Positions 1 through 20,498 of a stretch of DNA of 23,438 bases are shown one piece after another. Position 1 is the stretch's first letter. Every line of letters starts with the position of its first letter. The position numbers were made by a program, and so were the translations under genes. Source of the DNA: Loktanella sp. M215 (GTDB lineage Bacteria > Pseudomonadota > Alphaproteobacteria > Rhodobacterales > Rhodobacteraceae); contig NZ_WMEA01000002.1 in NCBI RefSeq assembly GCF_021735925.1, forward strand, positions 1 through 23,438, in the 5' to 3' direction. Under the pieces are notes generated by a model. That model was not told where the DNA came from. It ran no database searches and worked only from the letters and a program-made list of their open reading frames with translations.

Positions 1-825
1 TCGGACTCACCTGTAGCGACAAGCATAGTGCCATAGCGAGTGATACAGGTTTCTGGACCGTAAGGTGCAAGAGATAGTGCAATAGTTCCATATCCACCAA
101 TCCCACAAAGCTCATCGTAAACCTCTGGTGGGTATATTTAACTGTCAACTTTCAATATCCAGCTTGCGAGTTTCAGAATTCGGAAATATCCTTCTGATAA
201 ATTTCCAGGTTCGTATATCCCCGCTGATCAGGATGAGGGGAATGGGAAGAGGAAAGATACAGTCCCTTCTGGGAAATCAGATGAATTGGACTTGTTCTGG
301 CAAAACCCACAGGATCGTACCCGATTGCTATAACAACTTTACGGTCCTGCACTGAATCGCGAGAAAGTCTGAAGCTAGGTAAAAGCATCCCATGCCTCAT
401 GATTTTCTGATTAAGGCATTTTGGTCGTGCTTCTCGGGGCTCCGTATAGGTAAATATGATATTTTTAGTTTGCAGCGGTAATTTTAGGCAAAGCTTGCAC
501 AGGAAAAAAGAACCTTTTGCGGCATCGAAGTGATGTCAATATTCAGGTTCTCGCCTACACTATCCTTCAGGAACTCTTAATACGAGCTTCAAAATTTCCG
601 GAAACGTGATTGAGTTGAAATTCTATTAATACTAGAATTATTAACGCCATTCCGAAGAAATTCGTTTCCCCTATTAAAAACTTATCTTTCTGTTGATTTT
701 GTCGGCTTCCCACACCGGTCCATGTTCAACCCTCAAAAGATTAGTTCACTAGTTATAGAGCAGAAATTTCCAATCTGACTAATGAGCCCGGTACACCTTT
801 CTTCAGTTGAAATACAACCAATCAT
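1..825 (-). pseudogene. Frame-broken fourth gene of the methyltransferase/PRTase/ATPase operon, cut by the window edge
   Basis: No single frame is open, but joining frames gives a coherent protein. It starts near the ATG at 825-823 with MIGCISTEERC, continues with FLRVEHGPVWEAD, then NLNIDITSMPQKVLF, NIIFTYTEP and KVVIAIGYDPVGF, and near the edge shows LAPYGP followed one frame over by KPVSLAMAL. About six single-base shifts are needed, several in A/T runs (near 735, 675, 570, 495, 165 and 50). From memory, this motif order (an ERC motif, a DITS-P motif, a YT motif and a PyGPKP-like end) belongs to a conserved uncharacterised family found in prokaryotic conflict loci; I cannot name it. It lies downstream of the ATPase on the same strand, so it is probably the last operon gene. 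The start is uncertain, because an in-frame TTG lies about 75 nt further upstream. The C-terminus lies outside the window. Confidence 0.5.
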
Positions 826-946
826 AGACCAATCTGTAGCTACACACCCCGAAAGTATTCTCTCGACACTTCCCCACGCCCTGAATGGCCTACCCTCGCG
901 TATCAATCTTCTACCCCGCCACGAAAATTAAGTGTAAGTTGTTCGT

Positions 947-1209
947 CTATAGGATTACTAATATATTTTTCTTGAGTTTTGAGCGGCTAACACCAGCCGC
1001 TGAAGATACTCGCGCTGAACACATCCAGTCTTCAATATCCTCAATGTTGGAATATATTGGTTCTTTAGTATGAGCAGTTGGAATTTGAAAATAAGGAGTA
1101 AGAATTGAAGACAGAAACCACTTCTGACTTTGTCCTCGGGATCGAGACTTAGAAGTGTGAGAATGTTGCTCAAGAACTCCAAAAGACACGCAATTTTCAA
1201 GGAATGACT
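947..1209 (-). other. Out-of-frame C-terminal tail of the ORC/CDC6-like ATPase
   Basis: The ATPase frame stops at 1210, but the next frame is open from about 1260 to the stop at 947. It encodes a natural-looking continuation: FLFPVKDLEAARHVESFLE, later SFGVLEQHSHTS, KWFLSSILTPYF and TKEPIYSNIEDIEDWM. Adding one C to the CCC run (GGG at 1241-1243 on the + strand) would join the two frames into a protein of about 661 residues. I infer that this is the true C-terminus, probably a winged-helix-like end, lost to one deletion or a sequencing error. No ribosome-binding site suggests separate translation. Confidence 0.55.
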
Positions 1210-2931
1210 CTACATGGCGAGCCGCCTCAAGATCTTTAACGGGAAGAGAAAATCCGTTCTCCCCGGATATGACATACTTTTATCACGCGTCAGCCGATCC
1301 CTTATCGCTGTGCCAAGAACGTTAGCGAACCGATGTCGGTCATCACCTCCTTTTGGCTCAGCGCGAACCTTCCTAAACCAATATTCACTAGCTGAATGAA
1401 TCCCAGTAGCCTGTGTAAGAGGATCAATCCCCTTTGGAAAAATCTGCGAAGACTCACTAGTACTTCGTAGATACTCGGCCCAAATGAATTGGCAAATACT
1501 CAGAAATACAAATATGTTTTTTCCAGAGAGCAAAACAATATCAGGCGCACCATACCAGACAAGCTTTTGCCTACATGTTGAAAAAACCTGCATTAATGCC
1601 TGTTGTTTACGCTCCTTCTTCCACCAAACTTTACTTTGCCAAGGTTCTGACATGATTAACTCAGGCGAAATATCAATGGAATCAATATTCTGACGCGTCC
1701 AAGCCTCACCAAGTTTTGCACTTATCGGATTCGTCCGAGATACCTCTGAAAGGGCATTTTTGATCAGTGGTGAAACTTGGAAATCTGATGAAATTACTCG
1801 TTTTCCACTATCGCGGATGAACGTAGCCACCTTATCTTCAGCAGAAGCGCGTTTTCCGAAAAGATATGTTAATTTGCTGCCTTTTGGCAAGCAATCGAAC
1901 TCGGCGAATCTCAGCCGTCTATCAAATACGTCCTCACATAAGTCTTGAAACAACGTTCTTCGATTCTCGCCGCCTCGCAAAATCTTGATGATATCAACAA
2001 GCTCATATTCCCTCCCCTCTTCAGTAAAGGAGTTGTTTCCAAATCCCTGAAGGCCCTTCAGCATTGAATACGGTCTTGCTCCGACTCTATATGATACTCT
2101 TTTATCGCGATTTCCCAGCATTCTCATTATCACGCTGCGAAAAATCGGAGTTCCTAATTCGCCATTATCCCGCTCCAAATCCATCAAATCTTCAAATTGA
2201 TCTATGGTGATAAAAATTGGTAAGTCGATCGGTATGATTCCACTGGACTTTAAAGCATCTGCAATGCTTCCAATTGGATCACCGGGCTTCGTCTTTGTAA
2301 AATTAAGGCTTTTAGGAAAGTCAGAATTATAATTTAGAAAACTTTCGTACTGAAGAATTCTATTAGAAATTACCTTCCTCAGTGCATGAAATGTATCGAC
2401 ATTATCAAGAACACCGAACCAGCACGAATCCTTTTTTAATTTCTGAGCGAAATTATTAAGCTTCGTTTCCGAAATTTCGGCGCCGATAAAATCGGCTAAC
2501 TTAGCGCCGCGATCGGACCAGAGAAGCTCAATATTTGTCAAAAGATCGTCGACTATCCAGTAATTTAGATAGTCTCCAAAGAATAAACCTAATATATTCT
2601 TGTTGCTATCTACTTCTTCAGATATTGATCTCTGGCCGAAATCTAAAGCACCACTTGACCGAAGAACGATACTTGCAGATAAAAACTTCGAGCAATGAAC
2701 TGGTAATGGCCAAGGTTCAGAACTATTTTTATAAGCAATCAAAACTTCTGGTTTTAATAAATTCAGTAAGGCTGATTTTCCGGAACCTTGCAGGCCAGTT
2801 AATACTACACTACCAGGTTGGAACAGCTCATGCGTTTTACTTTCACGGAGTAAAACGGGACTAAAGATCTCTACAAACCTATCAGCTGGTATTGATTCAG
2901 TATGATATAGATTGTTGAAAGGATTAGTCAT
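1210..2931 (-). CDS. ORC/CDC6-like P-loop ATPase of a PRTase/methyltransferase conflict operon
   Basis: A 573-residue P-loop ATPase, probably the motor or sensor of a defence-type operon. A Walker A motif (GLQGSGKS, residues 46-53) and a Walker B motif (IFITIDQFED, about 239-248) are plain, and VSYRVGARPYS (about 279-289) could hold an arginine sensor. There is no signal peptide or membrane segment, so it should be cytoplasmic. The start codon overlaps the stop of the upstream phosphoribosyltransferase-like gene (ATGA, 2928-2931), which implies translational coupling. The pairing with a PRTase-CE-like protein matches the ORC-CDC6/PRTase-CE association predicted by comparative genomics of prokaryotic conflict systems; I rely on memory for that. 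The visible stop seems premature, since a plausible C-terminus continues in another frame to 947. Family assignment is moderate; the ATPase call is strong. Confidence 0.75.
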   Translation of the reverse strand: MTNPFNNLYHTESIPADRFVEIFSPVLLRESKTHELFQPGSVVLTGLQGSGKSALLNLLKPEVLIAYKNSSEPWPLPVHCSKFLSASIVLRSSGALDFGQRSISEEVDSNKNILGLFFGDYLNYWIVDDLLTNIELLWSDRGAKLADFIGAEISETKLNNFAQKLKKDSCWFGVLDNVDTFHALRKVISNRILQYESFLNYNSDFPKSLNFTKTKPGDPIGSIADALKSSGIIPIDLPIFITIDQFEDLMDLERDNGELGTPIFRSVIMRMLGNRDKRVSYRVGARPYSMLKGLQGFGNNSFTEEGREYELVDIIKILRGGENRRTLFQDLCEDVFDRRLRFAEFDCLPKGSKLTYLFGKRASAEDKVATFIRDSGKRVISSDFQVSPLIKNALSEVSRTNPISAKLGEAWTRQNIDSIDISPELIMSEPWQSKVWWKKERKQQALMQVFSTCRQKLVWYGAPDIVLLSGKNIFVFLSICQFIWAEYLRSTSESSQIFPKGIDPLTQATGIHSASEYWFRKVRAEPKGGDDRHRFANVLGTAIRDRLTRDKSMSYPGRTDFLFPLKILRRLAM

Positions 2932-3959
2932 GGCGTCACCTCTAAAGCTTCCCTTGATGTTCTCAAAAAAAGTGGTTCCCAGTATCCCGCTCGCCTGCGA
3001 TGGATAAGAGGTATAGTATTATCCGGGCAATTTGTCGATGTAACAATGAAGCCACCAGTAGCTCCTTGCTGATTGACGCCGTCAAAACCAAATGGCCCAA
3101 AATCTTGAGGAGATCCGGGGATAACTACCTTTGGATGGACGACGTTTGCAGTTTTCCTAATTGTTGGAAAATCCGGGTGTTCGCCATCTATTGCATTTTT
3201 AGTTATGAAACATTTTTGAGGTATTTCAAGGACAGGACTAAAACTAAAGTTTCTATATTGTCTCTGTAACCTTAGTGCTAACTGGGCACCCGCGGGGCAG
3301 ATATACATAGGACAGAACAAAACTTTTATATTCCGATCGACATTACACGCAAGCTTTAGAAAGGGCTCAACTTGCGAACCGCTGCCAACGAAATCTTCAA
3401 ATAAAACTATGTGGCTTATGTTTTCACCAAGATTCCGGACAATTTCGGTATCTATAAATTGCTGTCGCTGCCATGATTTACGATGAGCATACCATGTATA
3501 TCGTGGCCTTCCGTGTAGATTATTTTTTCCCAAAAAGCTACGTAGCCCAAAACTGTCAGTAATCTCAGTGAGCAAAGTCCTATTTAATATTGATTTTAAA
3601 TCTGCATCTGCCGTTGTAGAGAATACATTTAATTTTTGATCGTTCATCAACCAAGATACTACGTGACGGCTGAATGCTGTTCGGTAAGCTGCATCAAGTT
3701 CATTGTCGCCAAAGAAAATTAGGTGACGCAATAGTACAAATAAAGATTTCTGGTCGTCATCAGTTTCTGCAGATCCAATCCATCGCGCCAACCGGAAGAT
3801 AAAATCTCCATGACCACCATGTTTTGTGACGTCATATTCATTATAGAGCTCTCGTGACAAAAACTCTATGTCCTTCTTAATATCACTTATGCCAATGGAT
3901 CCGTCGTAGTCTTCTTGGCACCAAATCTGTAGTTTCCGTTGTAGTTCAATAGGTGTCAT
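2928..3959 (-). CDS. Phosphoribosyltransferase-like protein (PRTase-CE type)
   Basis: A 343-residue soluble protein with a PRPP-binding-loop-like motif at residues 184-196, IVLFEDFVGSGSQ. It is a hydrophobic strand followed by acidic E188-D189 and a GSGS loop, resembling the DD-x(3)-TG-T signature of type I phosphoribosyltransferases. The N-terminal 180 residues are helical and unassigned, and a second strand pattern (KVLFCPMYICPAGAQ) follows the loop. Classical purine or pyrimidine salvage enzymes are shorter and stand alone. This one sits between a DNA methyltransferase and a P-loop ATPase with 4-nt overlaps on both sides (3956-3959 and 2928-2931), as in the predicted PRTase-CE conflict systems. 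The substrate is unknown; acting on a nucleotide or a base-derived signal is only a guess. The frame is intact. Confidence 0.72.
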   Translation of the reverse strand: MTPIELQRKLQIWCQEDYDGSIGISDIKKDIEFLSRELYNEYDVTKHGGHGDFIFRLARWIGSAETDDDQKSLFVLLRHLIFFGDNELDAAYRTAFSRHVVSWLMNDQKLNVFSTTADADLKSILNRTLLTEITDSFGLRSFLGKNNLHGRPRYTWYAHRKSWQRQQFIDTEIVRNLGENISHIVLFEDFVGSGSQVEPFLKLACNVDRNIKVLFCPMYICPAGAQLALRLQRQYRNFSFSPVLEIPQKCFITKNAIDGEHPDFPTIRKTANVVHPKVVIPGSPQDFGPFGFDGVNQQGATGGFIVTSTNCPDNTIPLIHRRRAGYWEPLFLRTSREALEVTP

Positions 3960-5188
3960 CTTTTAAACCATTCATCACGTATATATTCAGCAATTTGTAT
4001 GGAAAAACTTGGTGGTACGGCATTTCCGATCATTCTGAAGTTTACTTGATCTGAGCCGAAGAATTTATAACTATCAGGAAAACTTTGTATGCGTGCTGCT
4101 TCACGCACAGTAAAACCTCGGTGTTGATCAGGATGTAAGAAATACCGTGGTTGCCCAAATCTCGTGTCAACTGTTGGCGATACATCATTCCAATGTGGGC
4201 GTCTATATTTTCCATTAAAAGTGTGCGTTATATCGATATAATCTTCGACACGCTTAGCATATCCTTTTTTAATAAGACTATTTAAGATCTCGCTAGTATC
4301 TGATCCATATGACTTATCAATATAATAAGGCTCTACTGGATCGGCATCGCCGTTGCTCCGCCGGCGGTTTTGCCGCCGTAGTCTGGAAATGATCTCTAGT
4401 ATTGATATCTCCGTATCATTAACTTGCCCGAATACTTCTGGTATATTCCATGTGTGAATTGAAGATATACCACACCTAACGTTTGATAATTTTTGACCTT
4501 GAGAAATTCGCCGCGAAATCTTATAGTCATTACCCTCTTCTGAAAGGGGATAAATTTGACCATTTATAATATCTTCAGACCCTCTAAGAATGTCACTTAG
4601 CCTCTTGGGACTTTTATGCTTTAGGTTTAGGTTCAGTGGCTTCTCGTCTAAAACGGCGGTTATCAGGACTCTGGTCCGAGATTGAGCTATTCCAAAATCA
4701 GAGACGAGATAGGACTTGGACGTTACCTTGTAATCTGAACTTTCCAGCTTCGAGACGGTTTCTTCATAATGATATTTATTAGTGGGGCTAAGTAGGCCCT
4801 TAACGTTTTCAATCAATACCAACTTTGGTTTGGCAAGACATGCGATTTCTGCGACGTTTAGCAGATGCTTGTTTCTTTCATCTGTTGGATCATTTTTTCC
4901 GGCGGTAGAAAAACCCTGACAAGGTGGACCAGCTATTAATATGTCAGATTCAGATACCTTTTGAATTACGTCGGCGTCTGGCTTGCTTAGGTCAGCTAAC
5001 CTCACAGTTGCGCCTGTGTTTCTCTGAAGTGTTTCCAATGCATTTACGTCGTGATCAAATGAGCAATGCTGTTGAAATCCGGCTCGTTCGAAGCCTAAAT
5101 CTAAACCGCCACAACCGCTGTATAAGCTGGCATATTTAATTTTTACTGGCACTTGTATGTCGGGTCCCGATCTGGATGTACTGAGCAA
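3956..5188 (-). CDS. DNA (cytosine-5)-methyltransferase, first gene of the conflict operon
   Basis: A 410-residue C5-cytosine methyltransferase that would transfer a methyl group from SAM to cytosine in a specific DNA site. Conserved blocks are in order: motif I SLYSGCGGLDLGFERAGF (from residue 21), motif IV GPPCQGFSTAGKND with catalytic Cys90, motif VI ENVKG (127-131), motif VIII QSRTRVLI, a variable target-recognition region, and motif X RMIGNAVPPSFS near the end. The target is unknown. The only open upstream start is a TTG at 5188 with AAGGAG unusually close (2 nt); a GTG just before VPVKIKYA is the alternative. The stop overlaps the next start (ATGA). No restriction nuclease follows. Downstream genes encode a PRTase-like protein and an ATPase, so the methyltransferase may mark self DNA for them. 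The 289 bp upstream hold no clear gene and should carry the promoter. Confidence 0.88.
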   Translation of the reverse strand: MLSTSRSGPDIQVPVKIKYASLYSGCGGLDLGFERAGFQQHCSFDHDVNALETLQRNTGATVRLADLSKPDADVIQKVSESDILIAGPPCQGFSTAGKNDPTDERNKHLLNVAEIACLAKPKLVLIENVKGLLSPTNKYHYEETVSKLESSDYKVTSKSYLVSDFGIAQSRTRVLITAVLDEKPLNLNLKHKSPKRLSDILRGSEDIINGQIYPLSEEGNDYKISRRISQGQKLSNVRCGISSIHTWNIPEVFGQVNDTEISILEIISRLRRQNRRRSNGDADPVEPYYIDKSYGSDTSEILNSLIKKGYAKRVEDYIDITHTFNGKYRRPHWNDVSPTVDTRFGQPRYFLHPDQHRGFTVREAARIQSFPDSYKFFGSDQVNFRMIGNAVPPSFSIQIAEYIRDEWFKR

Positions 5189-5477
5189 GACTCCTTGCTG
5201 TCGTATGGTTCATTCCTGTATCAAACCTGAAGGAGATCTGAGACCAGCTTTGGTGATAGTTAAGGTGCCAAGGTATGTTTGGCTATGCGAGCAGCTTATG
5301 TGCGTCTTCGAAAAGGTTTTTCGAGCTGGCAATGCCGTTGTGGCTTTCGAAACCGGATGAAACGTACGCCGTATGAGTATGTTGGTCGGTAGCATGGTTT
5401 GATGAGGCCAAGGTGTCTAGGTTTTGTGAACGATCGTAGGGCGGGGATCCTTGATAAGTACTTGACGCTGAAGTTAC

Positions 5478-6410
5478 CTATGCTTTTAGTGCTAGGATGG
5501 AAGTTGCGAATGTTGGTATACCCATTACATCAAGGCCGGGCGTCGAAACTCTTATAGATCCTGTGTTATTAGGCTCTTCATACTGAAACGTAGAGAGACT
5601 GGAGAACTTGAGGCCGCTTCCTGTAAGCTTGGTCTTCGCTTCCTGCACCAGAGTATCGCGATAACTGTCAATATCGTTCGAAACCACTCGGTTAACCAGT
5701 TGCAACACCCCACCAGTATGAAGCAGCCGTGATGCGAGTTCGAGCTGTCTTCTTTCGAGTGCTTCGCGGTTTTCACGATCAGAGTGAATACCAATCTCAT
5801 TGTAGATTTTGGTCATGCTTCGGGCCTTGTGTACACCCATGAACCACATCGTTACTGCATCAAACGGACTTTGCTCTTCAAGCCAGATTTCGAACTGCGG
5901 ATCACGAAGTAACATGTCTGCGTTAATAACAGAGATTTCGCTTGGAGCGGGTATACGTCCTTTTCGGACTTCTATACTAAATTGGCCGCTCAATTGCCGT
6001 TTAGATTTGAGGCGCTGATGTGCCATTGGGATTAACTCTAAGCCGAGTAGCTTTACTGCTCCCGAAATACAATCGGGGTTCTCATCAACGCCAACGATCG
6101 AGCTTTGTAAAGGTGGTAGTTCGGATTTTTATAGCTTCAATCCCATGCCCGAGACCGCAACCTATATCAAAAACTTTTTGATATTTCCAACCGAGACAAG
6201 ATTGAGCGCTAGCTGATGATAGAGGCCTTGGGCCTTATATCGTTCCGCATTTTGGTTCCACCCACTAGCGTAACGCGCTTGAGCAACCTGAAGCTGCTTG
6301 TGCGGCGGTGCGGAGAGGATGGGACCATGACAGTCGTTGTGAAGATCACCGCTGCCGCAGGGACAGGGCTCATGTGGTTGAAAGTCCATCATACGCCCTA
6401 ATCGACCCAA
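5478..6410 (-). pseudogene. SEC-C zinc-motif / SAM-dependent methyltransferase fusion, frame-broken twice
   Basis: The reading is split into three frames but reassembles to about 310 residues with no net length change. The N-terminus carries a SEC-C zinc motif (PCPCGSGDLHNDCHG). It is followed by methyltransferase motif I, VFDIGCGLGHG, then SSIVGVDENPDC as motif II, NADMLLRDP, FDAVTMWFMGVH as motif IV, and LLHTGGVLQLVNRV. The first break, near 6175, needs one extra base between AAAAAG and TTTTT. The second is an extra A in a five-base run (6126-6130 on the + strand). The two shifts compensate, so a single pair of homopolymer errors would explain it. The annotated start is TTG at 6410 with AAAGG upstream; ATG at 6392 or 6389 is also possible. 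The substrate is unknown. It points toward the methyltransferase operon at 5188 and may belong to the same island. Confidence 0.7.
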
Positions 6411-11918: not shown

Positions 11919-13365
11919 TCATCTTTTGATGCTCCATCCGTGCGGGATGAGGATTACATCGTCTTCATCAACAGATGCAGGGGTGTAGGTCACATTCAGC
12001 AGGCGCTGAGGGACGACAAGTTCGTGGGAAAGGTTTGCGTTCAGTCTCTCAATGATAGTTTTAGAGTATAACGGTATACCATCGAGGTCATCCCAATCGC
12101 TTTCCGGACGCTGAAATAAATCCAGTCCGCCTATAAATACTGATTCAACAAGATAGCCTTTCTTTTTTTTCTTTGTTGAAACGGTAACGTCCAGTACGTG
12201 CCCACGACCAGGTAGTTGGATGAAGTTTGCGCCCGCAGCCGATAGTGTGTCCGCAATAAATTCAAAACTCGCCTTAAGTTCGGGTATTTTTTGTAAGTCA
12301 AATACTTCGTCAAAATATTTACTTTTGATCTTGGGGCGGAGGTTACCTGTCGAGTCAAAAAATATCTCGAATAGCATCCCGTCTAACAACGCCTTCCGCT
12401 TCAATTTGCCAAACTGTGCAGTGCGCGATTTGAAGTCTTCGATAAAAACGTCAGCGGCTCCAGATGATCCACAAGCGGCTTGATATATATTTCGACCAAG
12501 GACGAATAGGTTGTTAATACTCATCGGCTTAACGCTTTTTTCATCAAGCTTCAGTAATGCCGGATTTTGAACATACCAATTATAGCTCTTCAAACCTTCT
12601 ATAATTTTATGTGACAACTTAGAGTTGTCGAGGCCAAACAGGCCATCTGCAAGAGCGGTTTCGTCATATTCCTTAACTATTTTGTCGATACCTAGATTGA
12701 AATAGAACTCACCGGCTAAGGATGTGTGTTCCCATGTAGTCTGCTTACCTTGGCTGGCGGCGGCGACGGTGTTTCTTACCCGCTTGAACATTGTCTCGAT
12801 GGGGCAGTCTTTTGTGTCAATGTGCTGCAACAGAGCCTCAGTATAAGTGCCATTCCGTCCGACCCCATCAGCAGCGGTTTCACCGGGGGACGTTGCAAAT
12901 CCTATGATCGTGCCTTTCGGGGCATAAACAGACGCAAGGCCGCGCATGGCTATATCCCGATGCCACGCCCTCTTCCAAGGATTGTTTCGGCACGCATCCA
13001 ACACAATAATCTTGGTTAATGCCTTGGATTTTGCCAATACCTCTACAACCTTATCCAAGGAGAGTGAGCTGTATTTTGCATCAATCTCTGAAGAGTCGTC
13101 TGTGTCGATGGCTAGCAAATAATTGCTACCATCAATTTGCATACCATGACCGGCGAAAAAAAAACATTCCGACATCATGGGTTTTGAGAAGATCACCACA
13201 TTCTTTAAGCTTTTTTTCCATGGCCGCTTTTGAGCAGTCTGTCCCGAGTATCACCTCAAAATCGTAGGACTTTAGTTTTTCACTTATGTCCAAAGCGTCG
13301 TTGACAGGATTTTCGAGTTCGCCACCTGCGGGATACTCCGCATTCCCTAAAACCAGAGCTGCCAT
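11919..13365 (-). pseudogene. Caspase-like (peptidase C14) protein, broken in an A9/T9 run
   Basis: A caspase-fold cysteine protease of about 481 residues after one correction. The p20-like domain shows MAALVLGNAEYPAGG, ENPVNDALDI, the catalytic His73 in MFFFAGHGMQ, NYLLAIDTDD, the catalytic Cys125 in IIVLDACRNNPW, then IIGFATSPGETAADG and GRNGTYTEALL. The break is one extra base in a nine-base run (A9 at 13156-13164 on the + strand) right before the catalytic His; eight would be in frame. The C-terminal 250 residues form an unassigned domain, perhaps the regulatory or recognition part. Bacterial C14 proteins often act as suicide or defence effectors; this role is inferred from family and from the location beside a recombinase on a plasmid. 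The start has only a weak A/G-rich leader. Confidence 0.75.
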
Positions 13366-19422: not shown

Positions 19423-19435
19423 AATTATCCGGTAT
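19411..19435 (+). repeat. Two more TCCGGTAT repeats at the partition/rep junction
   Basis: TCCGGTAT at 19411-19418 spans the stop of the RHH gene, and TATCCGGTAT at 19426-19435 lies in the end of repA. They match the repeats upstream of parA, so the partition genes are bracketed by the same sequence. Confidence 0.5.
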
Positions 19436-20498
19436 TTTTTCTATTCTGCACCCATTTTCTGCAAAATCCCAGAAATGCTGCTTCGGGATTGCGGGGCGTC
19501 TCAGGTAACCATTTTCGCCACTCCCGCTCCAGATAATAGACGTCATGGCCAGACACGAGCATACGTGCAGTCTCGTAGACATCCGGATCAAGCTGCGGCG
19601 CTGTCGCCTGTGGCAACACCAATTTGACGCTCTGCCTGTTCGAAAAAACGACCATGTCATCCTGCTCGTCCAGTTCAATGGAATAATCAGGCATATGGTC
19701 ATGTGACCGGTCTTCCAGGACAATATTCATGACCAAACGTCGAAACTCTCGAAGCGTGGAGTTCGACCCGCATTTTTTCTGAAGTAACAGCAGACTAACC
19801 CGCCATTGTTTCTGTGCACCACAGTGTTTGCGCGCAATTTCATAAATGCGCCGTTCCAGTGGCTTACGGAGGCGGAAGTAGTCTCGATGGAGGGTCAAGA
19901 CCTCCTTTGACTGGATAGCATTAAATACCCAATCAGATAGCTTAACCTCCACTTCCTGCATCCGCCCATCACGTGTTTCACGCACGATCTCGGCACTTTC
20001 GATCAATCCAAAAGTTCTAAATACTTCCTGACCGCCCGTCACAATGTTTGTACTGATCCGGGTTCCGGCAAGCCTTTCTAAGGCAGCCTTCAATTGAGCA
20101 TATCCAGATCCAGCTGTGTTACGATTGGTCGCAACCAGCATATCGAATGCACGAAAACGAACTGCTGGAGAGACCTTTTTACCATCGTTGATAGCAGTCA
20201 TAAGTTGACTGATGCAGTAAATCAAAATGTCCCTGTCATGTACGGTTGCAAGTCCGTCTACTGAAGGCTTGATCGCAATCTTTATGCCATTGTGTTCATA
20301 CTCACGGACACGAGTGTCCGGTTTGGTCGAAAGCGAAAAGATCGGATGCTCCATTGAAGCCATATCAGCTTTAGGAACGGCATCAAAAATATCGCAAACG
20401 AAAAAATCCCCTTGAGGGTGCCTGTCTGGCAAAAGAGGGGAGCGGTTGACCGCACTCTCATCAGGCAAAACTGGATCCTTTCGTACTTTCACACACAC
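19425..20498 (-). CDS. repA: Plasmid replication initiator, RPA/RepA family
   Basis: A 357-residue replication initiator of the alphaproteobacterial RPA type that would bind the iterons upstream and open the origin. Recognisable stretches are GDFFVCDIFDAVPKADMASM, EHPIFSLSTKPDTRVREYEH, FDMLVATNRNTAGSGYAQLK, SDWVFNAIQSKEVLTLHRDY and FRLRKPLERRIYEIARKH, which form the winged-helix pair of this family. The frame is intact. The longest open start is GTG at 20498, inside iteron 1. A TTG at 20468-20466 with AAAGGA about 7 nt upstream is better placed and would give 347 residues. Binding to iteron 1 would then repress its own gene. It is convergent with the partition genes. Confidence 0.87.
   Translation of the reverse strand: MCVKVRKDPVLPDESAVNRSPLLPDRHPQGDFFVCDIFDAVPKADMASMEHPIFSLSTKPDTRVREYEHNGIKIAIKPSVDGLATVHDRDILIYCISQLMTAINDGKKVSPAVRFRAFDMLVATNRNTAGSGYAQLKAALERLAGTRISTNIVTGGQEVFRTFGLIESAEIVRETRDGRMQEVEVKLSDWVFNAIQSKEVLTLHRDYFRLRKPLERRIYEIARKHCGAQKQWRVSLLLLQKKCGSNSTLREFRRLVMNIVLEDRSHDHMPDYSIELDEQDDMVVFSNRQSVKLVLPQATAPQLDPDVYETARMLVSGHDVYYLEREWRKWLPETPRNPEAAFLGFCRKWVQNRKNTG

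Follow-up and report, generated by a model that had tools for sequence, protein, structure and literature searches.

The first 5,188 bases of contig C2 of the Loktanella sp. M215 assembly G000 (23,438 bases, hereafter the window) carry an operon for a C5-cytosine DNA methyltransferase, a phosphoribosyltransferase-like protein of the PRTase-CE family, an ORC-CDC6-like AAA+ ATPase and a tandem-CARF protein of the CARF6 family. With moderate confidence, we read these four genes as an immune operon in which the ATPase and CARF6 serve as a sensor-switch, PRTase-CE acts as the effector and the methyltransferase places a self-mark. The observations behind this reading are the families and folds of the proteins, the structure of the operon, the co-divergence of its products, the conserved recognition region of the methyltransferase and the exchange of the effector gene in other genomes. 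The genes lie as follows, where L005 is the locus on contig C3 of the same assembly.

3956-5188, reverse strand: C5-cytosine DNA methyltransferase gene (PF00145, E 3.4e-60; 410 aa from a TTG start)
2928-3959, reverse strand: PRTase-CE gene (PF24390, E 1.6e-25; 343 aa), the proposed effector
1210-2931, reverse strand: first 573 aa of the ORC-CDC6-like AAA+ ATPase gene (PF24389, E 2.2e-27), ending at an early stop
947-1279, reverse strand: C-terminal stretch of the ATPase in a different frame; the open reading frame (ORF) 947-1189 matches the end of the L005 ATPase
about 1-906, reverse strand: CARF6 gene in several frames, cut by the contig start; open in L005 at 4117-5142

Profile searches bear out the methyltransferase, PRTase-like and P-loop ATPase identities proposed in a first-pass annotation made from the sequence alone, and the phosphoribosyl pyrophosphate (PRPP)-loop-like motif EDFVGSGSQ and both 4-nt ATGA overlaps that it described (methyltransferase/PRTase at 3959-3956, PRTase/ATPase at 2931-2928) are present. 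Three proteins had been taken as intact and a fourth as conserved-looking. Of the three, the ATPase is not intact in the window, its profile match ending at position 501 of 571 and its relatives being mostly ~680 aa long; the fourth protein exists as CARF6, split over frames and cut in the window.

The assignment of the effector comes from distant genomes. Searches with the ORC-CDC6 profile covered 385 genomes in one sample and 378 in another, the two overlapping, and returned 7 and 12 matches over the cut-off outside G000, 19 in all. Ten of these cover more than 100 profile positions, and in all ten, which include the near-twins L169 and L173, a CARF6-type protein is adjacent or fused. CARF6 was assigned by PADLOC in L093, L094 and L104, all three of which are also seeds of the CARF6 search profile, and the weakest CARF6 matches, at a fixed database size, are those of L169 and L173 (9e-6) and L171 (3e-6). 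The enzymes that precede or join the ATPase differ among the ten loci.

L093, L167, L170 and L172: PRTase-CE before the ATPase
L104 and L168: HD-CE before the ATPase (PF24391, 2.2e-23 and 4.8e-24, respectively)
L169 and its near-twin L173: calcineurin-type phosphoesterase before the ATPase, from motifs read in the letters
L094 and L171: protein kinase fused to the ATPase (PF07714 in L094)

Since the gene ahead of the ATPase-CARF6 pair is exchanged, PRTase-CE is most likely an exchangeable effector, and the ATPase and CARF6 most likely form the switch, as judged from sequence comparison. The first-pass annotation leaned towards a PRTase that produces or uses up a nucleotide-type signal, or that alters a base; an effector role fits better with the exchange and with the retron association described below. 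Its proposal that the ATPase senses or loads survives in the role of a switch, and the CARF-type sensor, which it missed, changes the model. The kinase-ATPase of L094 matches the fused PADLOC profile CARF_STK_AAA (5e-70). A C5 methyltransferase also occurs in L104 and L168 and, in divergent orientation, in L171. Compared by sequence with solved structures, the phosphoesterase, SIS-HAD and kinase-fusion proteins gave no match; their labels derive from motifs read in the letters, the HAD and PfkB matches of L093, blastp kinship and one weak sugar-kinase match, and we assume the SIS and phosphoesterase labels and the PfkB nature of the sugar-kinase match from appearance or family knowledge.

The other nine ORC-CDC6 matches, which cover fewer than 100 profile positions, showed no CARF6 in the stretches read; five of them (L095, L096, L097, L105 and L106) were read in 7.8-14 kb and four (L149, L150, L151 and L153) in ~3 kb, where CARF6 may lie farther off. 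L150 gives a weak ATPase-profile match (1.8e-4), and L096 is an exception in that its whole ORF matches profile positions 6-349, yet CARF6 is absent from the stretch read. Further genes adjoin some of the longer loci. In L093, L170 and L172, genes for a HAD protein of two domains and for a PfkB-type kinase adjoin the PRTase-ATPase-CARF6 unit in varying order, and may hint at a sugar-phosphate substrate of the PRTase. At L104 (530-9001), PDC-M33A/B/C genes sit between the C5 methyltransferase and the HD-CE, ATPase and CARF6 unit, and the candidate system PDC-M33 may thus belong to a larger operon. A dGTPase-type triphosphohydrolase (L167, 2345-3721; best solved relative 4.7e-60) is encoded upstream of PRTase, ATPase and CARF6, with a short opposite-strand gene between.

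Among close relatives, the four genes are tightly linked. When one genome was scanned for each species, relatives of the window PRTase turned up at 18 loci, spread over several phyla, and 16 of the 18 carry the four genes in one order on one strand. In L014 the contig ends within the CARF6 gene, and the PRTase of L008 lies in two frames. L024, from a Lokiarchaeota bin, has a TIR-domain gene (883-1692, PF10137, 3.1e-19) ahead of those for the PRTase, ATPase and CARF6. Pairwise distances of the four proteins correlate at r 0.74-0.87 over 13 loci, and in 2000 permutations no pair reached as high a value; shared host descent can contribute to this correlation. The linkage is looser in PRTase-CE at large: the family is over the cut-off in 13 genomes of the window's class (its own included), of which ten neighbourhoods were read, the partial matches of G306 and G089 being left out, and one of the ten has the ATPase and CARF6. 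A neighbourhood survey, suggested earlier as a check on the operon, favours it among close relatives and partly counts against it across PRTase-CE as a whole. The CARF6 alignment A3 found one further genome besides G000 among 398, an undercount, as it misses the distant CARF6 proteins of L093 and L094.

The surroundings of these loci are diverse. In a scan of 88 of the 109 listed flanking ORFs, no Pfam family occurred in more than 3 of the 88; relatives of ThsA, SoFic, PD-T7-1, PD-T7-5, type I and IV restriction enzymes, resolvases and integrases are among them. Ten of the 18 relatives lie on contigs longer than 100 kb, and tblastn searches of a plasmid collection, with the window PRTase and with the L007 ATPase as queries, found no relative of either. 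Carriage by phages is unsupported, as viral contigs gave no PRTase relative and only one partial CARF6-like frame (L098).

The PRTase matches its profile over positions 2-253 of 253 with 90.9 bits, against a cut-off of 27. It has the fold and the acidic-pair PRPP loop of a type I phosphoribosyltransferase: the AlphaFold2 model has a predicted local distance difference test (pLDDT) score of 94, and 44 of the 50 VIA rows for the model are named PRTases, UMP synthase or PyrR, in line with the PRTase fold that had been expected. By sequence, its alignment found no match among solved structures. A second motif, NCPDNT, lies near the C-terminus, and the PADLOC retron profile PRTase_III-A matches residues 32-335 (1.7e-15). 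In the wider survey, PRTase-CE sits beside retron reverse transcriptases at L089-L092, and no CARF6 match was found there. In the window and in 16 complete relatives, no reverse transcriptase lies beside the PRTase, whose neighbours are the methyltransferase and the ATPase. No Rfam match in the window exceeds the gathering score, in a collection that covers retron (msr-msd) RNAs poorly.

The ATPase scores 96.5 bits over positions 5-501 of 571 of PF24389 (cut-off 27), and a full-length relative, from the Pseudorhodobacter aquimaris locus L007, reaches 131.4 bits. Its motifs include a Walker A sequence, GLQGSGKS, and ITIDQFED. The fourth protein belongs to CARF6 by PADLOC (PDLC01923, 2e-55 for the L005 ORF), has the CARF Rossmann fold and carries invariant or near-invariant residues at strand ends in both of its halves. 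By sequence, the CARF6 alignment has no credible match among solved structures, the best (E 0.02) being an unrelated chain. Searches of the four operon proteins with Pfam and PADLOC recognised no effector domain in CARF6 or the ATPase, and among all four no endonuclease family, no nucleotide cyclase (CD-NTase or Cas10) and no PglZ, for which the rest of the genome was not searched.

The methyltransferase carries PPCQ, ENV, QxRxR and GNAV motifs; its relatives are ~400 aa long, and its nearest solved relative is M.HaeIII (2e-31). Over 16 of the 17 loci that carry the gene (L021 was left out), mean pairwise identity is 43% in motifs I-VIII, 47% in the recognition region and 52% in motifs IX-X. 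Three unrelated C5 enzymes, aligned in the same manner, are 28-31% identical in the catalytic part and 16-19% in the recognition region, with fewer aligned columns. A recognition region as conserved as the catalytic core suggests one fixed DNA specificity, and, most simply, either every copy methylates one site or the recognition domain is constrained by a partner protein. By analogy with restriction and BREX, self-marking is the best guess for its role, as had been proposed from the window alone.

These parts can be assembled into a proposed mechanism. The methyltransferase would mark one fixed site on self DNA, and the ATPase would engage DNA that is unmarked, or foreign DNA that is replicating, as the presumed trigger. 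CARF6 would bind a putative nucleotide-type ligand and gate the complex; the existence and identity of this ligand and the direction of gating are what we infer. The freed PRTase may then act on PRPP, nucleotides or another ribosyl acceptor, its presumed substrates, and this action would stop growth as abortive infection, if the PRTase is toxic and the operon defensive. A broader proposal is made more tentatively. The ATPase and tandem CARF6 may form a general immune chassis for plug-in effectors (PRTase, HD enzyme, metallophosphoesterase or kinase) that works without Cas10 or CD-NTase, the CARF ligand not coming from known messenger cyclases and being made, for instance, by the ATPase-effector complex or by phage; a C5 methyltransferase of one conserved specificity would be the self mark of the PRTase version.

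Several observations weigh against the immune operon as we propose it. Over the cut-off, 13 of 19 carrier genomes have neither Cas10-palm nor SMODS (9 of 19 at E 0.001), and with no cyclase in the operon and both domains lacking in these 13, there is no obvious source of the ligand. Cas10-palm is over the cut-off in 2 of the 19 (7 at E 0.001) and SMODS in 5, making 6 genomes with either; some of these assemblies are bins, and Cas10-palm and SMODS were the cyclase domains sought. G000 has two SMODS (CD-NTase-type) matches on other contigs (C4:85829-86308 and C5:87926-88393) and no Cas10-palm match. The methyltransferase was not detected in L024 (with ~1.9 kb available upstream), L093, L167, L170 or L172 and thus lies outside the minimal unit, and the locus L022 of G759 stops after the PRTase, with no CARF6 match elsewhere in that genome. 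In Foldseek, the top matches for CARF6 are KaiC and transporter domains (best E 1.8e-7, though with TM-scores of 0.21-0.26), and the best for the PRTase has E 0.005. The linkage and some defence genes around the loci keep the operon a candidate defence system, as first proposed, though their presence in the flanks has no background rate for comparison.

The most durable alternative, which we nonetheless consider unlikely, is a restriction system like BREX, in which the ATPase would read methylation and itself block phage replication, with the PRTase as an accessory that modifies DNA or nucleotides and CARF6 tuning the response. The BREX methyltransferase is of the PglX type. In PMC12839542, BrxD is described as an ORC-Cdc6 ATPase whose features BrxC shares, so that an operon pairing a methyltransferase with an ATPase of ORC-Cdc6 type follows BREX logic too, and the conserved recognition region of the methyltransferase suits such a system. 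The operon differs in having a C5 enzyme, no PglZ match among its four proteins and, instead, a PRTase and a CARF protein. ATPase-CARF6 units stand without a detected methyltransferase in L024, L093, L167, L169, L170, L172 and L173, and in the loci read, an enzyme exchanged before the ATPase suits an effector better than an accessory.

The shortage of known messenger synthases, in the operon and in the 13 carrier genomes, would also suit a signalling relay, in which the PRTase makes the nucleotide ligand of CARF6 and the ATPase-CARF6 complex executes; PRTases do handle nucleotides. Such a relay is quite unlikely. ATPase-CARF6 units occur without a detected PRTase in the HD-CE, phosphoesterase and kinase versions, neither CARF6 nor the ATPase has a recognised effector domain, and the PRTase-CE proteins next to retron reverse transcriptases have no CARF6 match beside them.

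The broken frames of the window raise the question of whether the operon, with its split CARF6 and short ATPase, is dead. This was rejected as the less likely reading, on the pattern of indels and on the open stretches of L005. One plasmid is assembled three times in G000 (C2, C3 and C11), the other two contigs being 98.5-99.4% identical to the window, and C3 circles a ~25.9 kb plasmid more than once. In L005, CARF6 is a single 341-aa ORF (4117-5142) that overlaps the longer ATPase frame by 4 nt, and the frame 5139-6302 runs through the point at which the ATPase match of the window ends; the N-terminal part of the ATPase is split there, unlike in the window. ORF 947-1189 shares 96% identity over 77 residues with the end of the L005 ATPase, and the window stretch 151-903 matches the CARF6 alignment A3 (1.2e-28) with internal stops. 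Base 1 of the window corresponds to L005 4248 and the CARF6 gene ends at 4117, so that the contig starts inside CARF6. The window and L005 differ by 52 indels and 21 mismatches; 46 of the 52 indels are of a single base, and 35 of the 52 fall in runs of three or more, which make up 17.7% of bases. Two passes of C3 across one stretch are themselves 54 gap openings and 25 mismatches apart. Because the indels are mostly single-base and run-associated and the C3 passes disagree, the breaks in the ATPase and CARF6 look like long-read sequencing errors, as are probably many other broken frames across the window.

It is improbable that the operon is instead an epigenetic or replication-control cassette of mobile elements: the window plasmid has a RepA gene (PF10134) and, by the look of unscanned translations, ParA-like and VirD4-like genes, and ORC-CDC6 and C5 methylation are replication-type functions, but contigs longer than 100 kb hold 10 of the 18 relatives and none was found in the plasmid collection, the flanks vary and include defence genes, and CARF and PRTase-CE are defence-associated families.

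Other genes of the window, all on the reverse strand, are of separate interest. The RepA-type replication protein (19425-20498) is 92% identical to a Roseinatronobacter plasmid protein, a kinship that suggests a Rhodobacterales host. Immediately upstream of the operon, 5478-6410 (L005 9717-10649) encodes a protein with an N-terminal SEC-C-like motif, weak methyltransferase similarity and a weak PADLOC mad2 match (4.4e-7). A caspase-domain protein (11919-13199; PF00656, 1.8e-22) is possibly another defence effector. The segment 14562-17558 encodes a second C5 methyltransferase with an N-terminal helix-turn-helix, a Vsr nicking endonuclease and an MvaI/BcnI-type endonuclease, and by its gene content is an ordinary type II restriction-modification set.

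The component families are already named in Pfam and PADLOC, and relatives bear NCBI or UniRef labels such as ORC-CDC6 family AAA ATPase and phosphoribosyltransferase-like protein. The four-gene combination was not found named in the literature searched, which did not cover the likeliest sources, and it is quite possible that the neighbourhood was described earlier; Makarova 2020 is said to be the source census of CARF families. Type III-A retrons have a homologous PRTase effector, with shared acidic PRPP-loop-like and C-terminal Pro-Asp/Asn-Asn motifs, but the operon has the ATPase, CARF6 and methyltransferase in place of a reverse transcriptase, and no retron RNA was found with Rfam. The CARF6 family of PADLOC, including CARF_STK_AAA, matches the fourth protein and the kinase-ATPase of L094, whereas the operon has its effector as a PRTase of its own and a methyltransferase besides. 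Can1, an ancillary nuclease of type III CRISPR with tandem CARF domains, differs in that the operon is without a recognised nuclease domain or CRISPR link and G000 has no Cas10-palm match. For the DprA-PRTase system of P2-like phages and for ShosTA-type pairs, PMC9122126 proposes that the PRTase is an effector subject to a partner protein with a possible DNA-sensing role; the partner there is DprA, in place of which the operon has the ATPase and CARF6.

If the proposed mechanism is true, CARF sensing would extend outside the known Cas10 and CD-NTase pathways and would be coupled to an ORC-type AAA+ switch, which would define a messenger to seek and place four interchangeable effectors on one chassis. 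It would also open the chemistry of the type III retron PRTase to study in a protein-only setting, and would account for a methyltransferase with a conserved recognition region travelling with PRTase effectors across phyla.

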